64,000 nucleotides of DNA from an uncultured Algibacter sp. (GTDB lineage: Bacteria > Bacteroidota > Bacteroidia > Flavobacteriales > Flavobacteriaceae). The position numbers and the translations under genes are program-made. Under the pieces are notes generated by a model. The model was not told the DNA's origin. It saw only the letters and a list, made by a program, of their open reading frames with translations, and searched no databases. The stretch lies in NCBI RefSeq assembly GCF_947487605.1, contig NZ_CANKXK010000003.1:124001-188000 (forward strand), read 5' to 3'. This document shows positions 5,947-64,000 of this stretch, piece after piece. Positions within the stretch are counted from its first letter, which is position 1, and each line of letters begins with the position of its first letter.

Positions 5947-5973
5947 GAGATTTCCGCCTTCGCGGAAATGACA
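5947..5973 (-). repeat. GTCA-family palindrome, minus orientation
   Basis: The minus strand reads TGTCATTTCCGCGAAGGCGGAAATCTC. The hairpin arms TTTCCGC/GCGGAAA enclose a 4-base loop. Its right end supplies an ATG (gaaATGACA) that falsely extends the downstream methyltransferase ORF. Confidence 0.85.
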
Positions 5974-36334: not shown

Positions 36335-36412
36335 CGTCATTCTGAATTTATTTCAGGATTATATAAAAGTTTTTAAAAAATTATAAGAAACTGAAACAAG
36401 TTCAGTTTGACG
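36335..36412. repeat. REPIN-like pair of GTCA palindromes, 78 bp
   Basis: The left member (36336-36360, plus) is CGTCATTCTGAAT...TTTCAGGATT; the right member (36386-36412, minus) reads CGTCAAACTGAACTTGTTTCAGTTTC. The heads are at the outer ends and about 25 bp of AT-rich spacer lies between. It fills the convergent VWA/PorP gap. Because the two ends are inverted, the transcript could fold into one long stem, which may also act as a terminator. Confidence 0.8.
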
Positions 36413-59628: not shown

Positions 59629-60816
59629 TTATTTTGAAAGAAAAATAGACACCGCATTTCCGCCAAATCCGACAGCATTAATTAAAATATTCTCTATTTT
59701 TTTTGGAGTATTTTGCGATTCTAAATAAGGAACACCTATGAACTTTTGATACTGCAACATGAGTACAGCAAATTCAATACTAAGAGCCCCGGACGCTCCA
59801 AAGGTGTGACCTACCTTCCATTTATTAGTAGTCAATGCAGGAAGTTTGTTACAAAATATTTTTTTTATCGCATTAAACTCAGAGGAATCTCCCTTAATAG
59901 TCCCTGGCGCATGCATAACCACAACATCAATATCATCTGGAGACATGTCACCCATTGCCATTTTCATGGACTTCTGAAAACATTGTGCATCACTTGAAAT
60001 TGAAATGTTATGTTTCAAGATCTCAGTTGCATAACCATAGCCTCTAATTATTGCCAACGCATTGTCTTTCTTTCCTGCTTCTAAACAGACCATGGAAGCT
60101 CCTTCTCCTAAAACCATTGTGTTTTTTGACTTTTCGAGATCTAAAGCACGACATGGAAAAGATTCTTCGGCAGGCTCAGAATGACAATTGTGGTTTAAAT
60201 TTGTCTTTGCATAAATCTTTAACGCTTGCATTTGAGCAATGGTAAATGGTGTTAATGGCGCCTCGCTACCACCTACTAAGAATTTATCACTCATTCCAGA
60301 ATTAATCCATGCAATACCGTTTAGCATAGCGTGTAATGCTGTGGAACAGGTAATAGAATGACTTATTTCTGGACCTTGCGTTTGTAAATCGTGCGCCACC
60401 CAAGATGATATATTCCCTAAAGTGGTTGTTGGCGAACTTAACGTTTTAGCTTTATTGTTTTTAAGAAACCCTTCATGATATTTTTCAAAAAGTGATGTAG
60501 CCCCTCGAGAAGATCCTATGTTGATTCCGAAATTATCTAAAGAATTCCAATTAGCATTTTTAATTGCTTTTCTAGATGCATAGATAGCATACAATACAGT
60601 AGCGTCTAAAGATTTATATTTGTTATCTGATTGTCTTAAAGCTTCAATCTCTTTTTTTGCATCCTCAGGAATTTCTGCTACTAAAACAGATGATGAATTG
60701 AATATTTTTTCAATGATAAAATGATTATCACTTTGATATCTTTTCCATGCCTCACTTAAAGATTTTCCTAGAGGAGAAATAGATGAAATAGCTGTTATTG
60801 AAATTGGTTTTTGCAA
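59629..60816 (-). CDS. Beta-ketoacyl synthase-like protein of the biotin cluster, with a repeat-derived insert
   Basis: 395 residues, a FabF-like condensing enzyme. The triad looks intact: Cys in 'HSITCSTALHAMLNGI', His in 'VVMHAPGTIKGDSSEF' (family form HGTGT), and Lys/His in 'TNKWKVGHTFGASGALSIEFAV'. The usual 'SSS' after Cys is replaced. It lies 21 bp downstream of bioA, so it probably works in pimelate-chain assembly for biotin or a related acyl step. Between 'ALKIYAKTNLNHN' and 'FPCRALDLEKSKNTM' there is a nine-residue insert 'CHSEPAEES' encoded exactly by a GTCA palindrome in the minus strand. The insert lies in a surface-type loop. Confidence 0.9.
   Translation of the reverse strand: MQKPISITAISSISPLGKSLSEAWKRYQSDNHFIIEKIFNSSSVLVAEIPEDAKKEIEALRQSDNKYKSLDATVLYAIYASRKAIKNANWNSLDNFGINIGSSRGATSLFEKYHEGFLKNNKAKTLSSPTTTLGNISSWVAHDLQTQGPEISHSITCSTALHAMLNGIAWINSGMSDKFLVGGSEAPLTPFTIAQMQALKIYAKTNLNHNCHSEPAEESFPCRALDLEKSKNTMVLGEGASMVCLEAGKKDNALAIIRGYGYATEILKHNISISSDAQCFQKSMKMAMGDMSPDDIDVVVMHAPGTIKGDSSEFNAIKKIFCNKLPALTTNKWKVGHTFGASGALSIEFAVLMLQYQKFIGVPYLESQNTPKKIENILINAVGFGGNAVSIFLSK
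60162..60188 (-). repeat. GTCA palindrome inserted in frame in the ketoacyl synthase gene
   Basis: The minus strand reads TGTCATTCTGAGCCTGCCGAAGAATCT, read as nine codons CHSEPAEES. It matches the TGTCATTCTGAGC...GAAGAATC subfamily and does not disturb the frame. Confidence 0.9.
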
Positions 60817-62103: not shown

Positions 62104-62107
62104 ATTT

Positions 62108-62185
62108 TGTTATTCCTGAAAAGGCAGGAATCTATTTTTTAATTTTTTCGTTGTATTGCTGATTCCTGCTTTCGCAGGCACGACA
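62108..62185. repeat. REPIN-like 78-bp pair between bioD and bioA
   Basis: The left member (minus) reads AGATTCCTGCCTTTTCAGGAATAACA, so its head faces left (TGTTATTCCTG on plus). The right member is GATTCCTGCTTTCGCAGGCACGACA with its head to the right. The heads (TGTTA and TGTCG variants) are at the outer ends and about 27 bp lie between. It fills the gap between bioD (ends 62187) and bioA (starts 62103). Confidence 0.85.
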
Positions 62186-63265: not shown

Positions 63266-64000
63266 CTAAGTTACAAAAGTAGCAAGTAGATTTAAGACTT
63301 TGGTGATTTCTTGAGGGGAATTGTAACTATTCAGACAGAAACGTAATCGTTCTTTACCTTTTGGAACGGTTGGAGATAATATAGGCTTTACATTAAACCC
63401 ATTATCTTGAAGTTTTTCTGAAATAGATTTTACCTTGTTATTACCCGAAATGATACAGCAATGTATTGTTGAATGAGATTCAATAAAAATATCTTGAAGT
63501 TTATTTTTAACAATTTCAGACTTAAAAAGTTGTACGTTTTGATGTAATCTATCTAAGTTTTCGCTTATTATTAATTCATGATAAGCAGTATGAATTGTAG
63601 CTAAACTATGTGGCGGTAATGCTGTAGTATAAATAAAACTGCGCGAAAAATTTACTAAATATTCTTTTAAATTTTTACTACATAAAATTGCTGATCCGTG
63701 GCAACCCATGGCTTTTCCGAAAGTAATAATGCGAGCAAAAATGTCTTTTTCTAACCCTAAATTTTGAATAATACCAACTCCTTGTTCACCAAAAACACCT
63801 AATGCATGTGCTTCATCAACTACTAGAAACGCATTATATGTTTTACATATTTGTGACATTAAGGTTAAATCTGGAGTATCTCCATCCATAGAGAATACGG
63901 ATTCTGTGGCGATGTAGATATTTGTTTCTCGTGAGACCTTTCGACTGCGCTCAAGGTGACACTCTAAGTCTTTTATATTATTATGCTTAAACTTATAGGG
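63266..64000 (-). CDS. bioF: 8-amino-7-oxononanoate synthase (partial), with a repeat-derived insert
   Basis: At least 245 residues are in the window; the true start is beyond base 64000. The ORF-track Met at 63889 is internal (the family segment is 'TESVFSMDGDTPDL'). Seen: 'YNAFLVVDEAHALGVFGEQGVGI' (Asp binding PLP), the PLP lysine in 'IITFGKAMGCHGSAIL', 'SFIYTTALPP' and 'VSEKLQDNGFNVKPILSPTVPKGKERLRFCLNSYNS'. Upstream codons 64000-63890 read 'PYKFKHNNIKDLE', then 'CHLERSRKVS', then 'RETNIYIATESVFS', and the middle stretch is encoded by a GTCA palindrome. First visible gene of the biotin operon. Confidence 0.93.
   Translation of the reverse strand, partial: PYKFKHNNIKDLECHLERSRKVSRETNIYIATESVFSMDGDTPDLTLMSQICKTYNAFLVVDEAHALGVFGEQGVGIIQNLGLEKDIFARIITFGKAMGCHGSAILCSKNLKEYLVNFSRSFIYTTALPPHSLATIHTAYHELIISENLDRLHQNVQLFKSEIVKNKLQDIFIESHSTIHCCIISGNNKVKSISEKLQDNGFNVKPILSPTVPKGKERLRFCLNSYNSPQEITKVLNLLATFVT
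63934..63962 (-). repeat. GTCA palindrome inserted in frame in bioF
   Basis: The minus strand reads TGTCACCTTGAGCGCAGTCGAAAGGTCTC. It is read in the same codon frame (Cys-His-x-Glu) as the copy in the ketoacyl synthase gene. Confidence 0.85.

Follow-up and report, generated by a model that had tools for sequence, protein, structure and literature searches.

The bioF gene and the palindromes of the bio operon

The window, meaning the whole 64,000-nt stretch of DNA analyzed here, breaks off inside a gene that the first-pass annotation had read as bioF and as open to the window edge. This reading was borne out in the genome contig, where the full gene encodes 380 aa (L005:827-1969). The product matched aminotransferase class I/II (PF00155, E=7.7e-44), and, judging from the adjacency to bioD and bioA together with sequence recognition, the 380-aa gene is BioF. 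The features of the locus are listed in Table 1.

Table 1. Genes and palindromic elements of the bio operon discussed in the text (window coordinates)
Feature	Position	Strand	Remarks
bioF, 3' part	63266..64000	(-)	frame open to window edge; gene continues beyond
Type-A REP-like element TGTCACCTTGAGCGCAGTCGAAAGGTCTCA	63932..63961	(-)	in frame within bioF, read CHLERSRKVS
5' stem arm ACCTT of bioF element	63953..63957	(-)	directly after unpaired TGTC tag; fold and covariation
3' stem arm AAGGT of bioF element	63936..63940	(-)	fold and arm covariation, 357 copies
Beta-ketoacyl synthase-like gene with second genic copy	59629..60816	(-)	ORF and orthologue comparison
Type-D REP-like element TGTCATTCTGAGCCTGCCGAAGAATCT	60160..60186 (about)	(-)	in ketoacyl synthase gene, read CHSEPAEES

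The annotation had also recognized that a palindrome copy encodes the bioF peptide, which was confirmed: TGTCACCTTGAGCGCAGTCGAAAGGTCTCA is read in the codons TGT CAC CTT GAG CGC AGT CGA AAG GTC TCA. The copy in the ketoacyl synthase gene is read TGT CAT TCT GAG CCT GCC GAA GAA TCT, so that both share the register TGT CAx xxT GAG (CHLE and CHSE). The further claim that one element occurs twice in the operon held insofar as both copies are REP-like, in frame and in one register, but the two belong to different subtypes, type A in bioF and type D in the ketoacyl synthase, where the loop is CCTGCC instead of GCGCAG. A shared frame in two copies of one operon is weak evidence, because roughly four of the six frames of the element contain no stop, and the two-copy pattern proved misleading.

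The DNA folding energy of the single bioF element was unremarkable (z=0.41), and the hairpin is therefore supported by covariation between copies and not by stability. In the AlphaFold model of the window BioF, the insert residues 150-158 lie within a helix spanning residues 145-158, with pLDDT of 90-94 for the block. The charged CHxERSR reading can, on this model, serve as the helix end.

Two type-C palindromes in inverted arrangement, TGTTATTCCTGAAAAGGCAGGAATC and the reverse of CTGTCGTGCCTGCGAAAGCAGGAATC, were observed between bioA and bioD (window 62107-62184), which brings the REP subtypes in the bio operon to at least three. More REP-like copies were seen in the window at 5972, 6559, 10313, 19450, 31575, 32357, 32740, 36335 and 36412, comprising types A, B and C and a type with a GCAAAGCGA loop; those at 36335 (+) and 36412 (-) form another inverted pair.

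A REP-like family across the Flavobacteriaceae

In the own genome (3.38 Mb), TGTCAYNYTGAGCNNNNNCGAA was matched exactly nine times, and about 36 copies were judged credible when two or fewer mismatches were allowed. Across 300 Flavobacteriaceae genomes, TGTCANNNYGAGCGNAGTCGA was present in 170, with 1830 copies in total, while the backward control pattern gave no match in the same 300 genomes. Among 357 type-A copies the variable 5-nt arms paired perfectly in 178, compared with a mean of 11.8 and a maximum of 22 when arms were shuffled between copies, and 29 different paired stems were present. Given the genome copy numbers, the spread over genomes, the empty control and the arm covariation, the bioF repeat is not a chance match. 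The element is a REP-like palindrome about 30 bp long, in which the TGTC tag is unpaired and the 5-bp stem covaries.

In 227 intergenic copies TGTC was nearly invariant at a sharp left edge, and a search around these copies revealed no flanking motif. Type A has a 12-nt loop close to GAGCGCAGTCGA and a variable second stem position; its genic copies carry a CTCA-like tail, and its other copies show no conserved tail. With regard to MITEs, which combine terminal inverted repeats with target-site duplication, no duplication was consistent across copies; an excess of short matches was weak and confined to CTCA-tailed copies. Head-to-head pairs hold 89 of the 227 intergenic copies and tail-to-tail pairs hold 5, whereas genic copies are mostly single. 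Three relatives of type A were distinguished: type B (CGTCATnCTGAACTTGTTTCAG; CGTC...GAACTTGTTTCAG), in which, by inspection, the CGTC tag is followed by an approximately 8-bp stem with a 4-nt loop, type C (CGTCATTCCCGC...) and type D (...CCTGTCGA...).

The head-to-head pairs often join a stem ACCTY to a stem AGGTY (G313:C1 271944/271998 and 3101039/3101092, and other genomes), so that the long palindrome formed by both copies has a CC/CC mismatch and the stems of the single monomers stay intact. Tandem arrays of type A with regular spacing were also observed, at about 166 bp in G014:C15:263178-263697, 94-99 bp in G014:C19:156872-157376 and about 40 bp in G251:C1:2576993-2577253.

CGTC-tagged REPs, in the available portion of Di Nocera et al. 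(2013; PMC3733652), occur in phyla that include the Bacteroidetes, had yielded no dedicated transposase, and are characterized by a stem of 8-9 bp, a loop of 4-5 nt, AT at the first and second stem positions and a CCA tail. RPE-4 and RPE-6 are counted among them; intragenic REPs of the GTAG and CGTC types are catalogued there, in-frame copies are reported, and recB of two Xanthomonas species carries REP insertions at about the same site. Like those REPs, the present elements have an unpaired TGTC/CGTC tag at one end of a short palindrome, form predominantly head-to-head dimers and show no association with a transposase gene, and type B fits the description in stem and loop. Type A differs in its 5-bp stem, 12-nt loop and variable second stem position and in the tail of its genic copies, which is CTCA-like and not CCA. 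The reading-frame bias and same-site turnover described below are not reported for CGTC-tagged REPs in the same portion of that article.

In-frame palindromes that are tolerated by the protein are also known from housekeeping genes of Rickettsia, as the Rickettsia palindromic elements, RPEs (Ogata/Claverie; PMC2229807, PMC10969869). The present elements resemble RPEs by description in lying in frame in housekeeping genes but, unlike the classical RPEs of 100-150 bp in Rickettsia, are about 30 bp long and spread across the Flavobacteriaceae. They are a widespread counterpart outside Rickettsia of elements by which housekeeping proteins gain about ten residues. The element sequence itself appeared in the literature only as coincidental oligonucleotides in unrelated work, and no precedent was found in open-access full text for the Flavobacteriaceae families, a measured frame bias or same-site turnover. 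In-frame palindromes themselves are known; the REP families of the Flavobacteriaceae, the measurement of their frame bias and the turnover at a hotspot are new.

Reading frames of genic copies

To count frames, 249 loci chosen solely for holding a type-A copy were used, in a census weighted to REP-rich genomes (G313, G215 and G297 supply many loci). A copy was scored as genic when it lay inside a coding-supported ORF of at least 150 codons, open frame and codon usage being the sole criteria for calling genes. The 59 genic type-A copies fell into 34 gene families and 38 family-by-frame events, and independent copies were numerous enough to measure which reading frames and protein sites are tolerated.

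The favored frame was T-GTC-ANN-NYG-AGC-GCA-GTC-GAA-NNN-TC, read V-T-[LS]-S-A-V-E-x-S (VTLSAVExS). It accounted for 26 of 38 events against 8.7 expected with equal use of stop-free frames (0 of 1,000,000 simulations as high); a conservative bound of one third per event gave p=1e-5, and with one event per family the count was 26 of 34. Two reverse-frame genic calls (L242 and L323) resemble chance matches to the loose pattern, and because at least one of them is still counted, the measured bias is conservative. The CHxERSR frame of bioF was used in 3 of the 38 events. In the own genome, VTLSAVE was the frame of eight of nine genic type-A copies, bioF being the sole exception. The idea that frame is selected was therefore right in that genic frames are non-random and not evenly spread, but the Cys-His-x-Glu register singled out by the first-pass annotation is a minority one.

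Its proposal of selection for a soluble reading failed: mean hydropathy was +0.70 for the favored frame and -1.03 for CHxERSR, and VTLSAVE is the least hydrophilic of the common frames. The VTLSAVE codons are also commoner in these genomes (mean 16.5 vs. 9.6 per thousand). Frame thus matters among genic copies, CHxE is not the favored one and solubility is not the criterion. A type-B search gave five copies in ORFs, four of them in a CHxE-like register (RHPELVSGS) and two well inside the frame; the other subtypes had too few genic copies in the same loci for a frame census.

Copies at ORF edges, which are mostly untranslated, displayed no bias, with 9 of 43 in the VTLSAVE frame (Fisher p=1.9e-5 vs. 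genic copies), so that the bias is seen in translated copies only. This contrast between translated and untranslated copies suggests that the frame bias results from purifying selection acting on the peptide that the element encodes.

Recurrently occupied sites and their interpretation

BioF was compared between 30 orthologues in relatives and another 78 loci of named genomes. Many orthologues have a short segment from DLE to the strand that precedes SMDGD; in others this segment is REP-derived, and a recognizable REP was present in 31 of 108 species. The states found were type A read as CHxERSR, type B in forward (RHSELVSES) and reverse (DEMLKRVQHD) orientation, and type D (CHTEPVEV); one orthologue held type A in a third frame together with type D, and RFALNDN and RFAQDNN resembled, by inspection, further reverse copies that are more decayed. 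The expectation of a gap in orthologues was accordingly correct for the many that lack the segment, but others carry different REP types in both orientations and in more than one frame. In L366 a type-A copy lies within the loop of a type-B copy, and in bioF of G001, a genome of the same genus, a different REP copy lies two codons farther along.

Other genes were hit repeatedly as well. At TGTCATTCTGAGCCTGCCGAAGAATCT the ketoacyl synthase has 11 codons more than its same-genus orthologue L435; the site is 34 residues long in the own genome, compared with 23 residues in the G001 orthologue, and G007 and G313 hold other REPs at the same position. RNase R of the own genome has 13 extra codons at its REP site compared with same-genus G001, and REP copies stand there in two frames in other genera. 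Repeated REP use was also seen in proteins presumed, by sequence recognition, to be MetG-like, LeuS-like and 2-oxoacid dehydrogenase E2-like. Recurrently hit sites of this kind could be used as natural points for insertions into enzymes. Entire inverted REP pairs were observed in frame in coding sequence in L263 (G313), L245 and L252 (G155, G299), among them SGRAKSRPFDSAQGN in the ketoacyl synthase and VTSSAVEKSQKKGLDCARPD, each adding about 15-20 residues.

We consider it likely that the bioF repeat belongs to a mobile REP-like palindrome whose in-frame copies survive at permissive sites and are then replaced by other REPs. Transposition would be the source of the copies. TGTCACCTTGAGCGCAGTCGAAAGGTCTCA would have entered bioF in a stretch that tolerates it, at a helix end and before a strand; copies that break genes would be lost, and in-frame copies at permissive sites would survive. 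Replacement of the survivors by other REPs over evolutionary time would then leave different elements at the same site in different genera. The unusual CHxERSR frame may have been kept in bioF since that reading would prolong the local helix, a plausible reason in light of the structural model.

A more specific reading is possible but held tentatively. The codon positions in the housekeeping genes bioF, bio-operon ketoacyl synthase and RNase R, and probably in MetG and LeuS, might be standing docking sites, where a resident REP attracts or is swapped for new REPs by hairpin-loop nesting or exchange through a non-RAYT mobilizer, with the peptide filtered and one preferred reading per element family.

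An origin of the frame bias in the insertion mechanism (choice of target or length of the insertion) instead of in peptide selection is unlikely. The CTCA tail is more frequent in genic than in other copies, which would suit a fixed 30-bp unit, and decayed flanks cannot show a target preference; however, the intergenic copies have no flanking motif, the untranslated ORF-edge copies have no frame bias, and the same element stands in another frame at the BioF site.

Descent of all REP-like segments at the BioF site from a single ancient insertion that was inherited and drifted is very improbable. REP labels do cluster on the BioF tree (none of 200 shuffles was as low), and the [KR]C[QR]xERSR form recurs in several genera. 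Yet the tree, from which the site was omitted, requires a minimum of 22 state changes, and its starred branches force at least seven for presence alone. Close relatives carry different families, opposite orientations and a nested copy; the well-supported sister pairs L133/L138, L045/L368 and L151/L182 differ in type or orientation, and the shifted copy in G001 also stands against one insert. Deriving the reverse-orientation types from one ancestor by point changes would be very hard. The BioF site is a turnover hotspot and not a single inherited insert.

That the element is held in the Cys-His-x-Glu frame through selection for an open, soluble peptide has the least chance of all: the bioF and ketoacyl synthase copies, nearly all type-A copies at the BioF site and four of five type-B genic copies (of which just two sit well inside the frame) use this register, but for type A it is already contradicted by its use in 3 of 38 events elsewhere and one of nine in the own genome, by the favored frame being the more hydrophobic one and by the reverse-orientation copies also retained in BioF.

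The mobile palindrome favored here shares with REP/RAYT systems a hairpin and a tetranucleotide tag; in those systems, in-frame REP copies occur inside tnpA-REP genes of subclass 2.4, and subclass 2.6 comprises Bacteroidetes TnpA-REP (PMC6006769). Unlike in REP/RAYT systems, the tag is TGTC/CGTC and not GT[AG]G, and RAYT genes are not flanked by elements: 28 of 30 RAYT loci were free of copies, and the copies in the remaining two lay away from the gene. A Y1 transposase was undetected in over half of the element-bearing genomes, as no profile match to PF01797 was obtained in 91 of 170, including G191 (77 copies), G156 (64 copies) and G272 (44 copies). The analysis brings to light a family-wide mobile element without a known transposase. 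RAYT was considered as the mobilizer and rejected, the association being unconvincing (presence odds ratio 1.85, p=0.064; copy counts, Mann-Whitney p=0.037) and flanking copies absent.

One RAYT locus (L010:1483-2958; G000:C2:61712-63187) encodes a REP-associated Y1 transposase fused in frame to coproporphyrinogen III oxidase (HemF), in an ORF of 491 aa with PF01797 at residues 7-120 and PF01218 at residues 196-490. The fusion was confirmed by motif in 8 of 30 RAYT loci, each from a different genus, and several other ORFs of 490-553 aa at RAYT loci look like the same fusion, which is possibly a domesticated RAYT.
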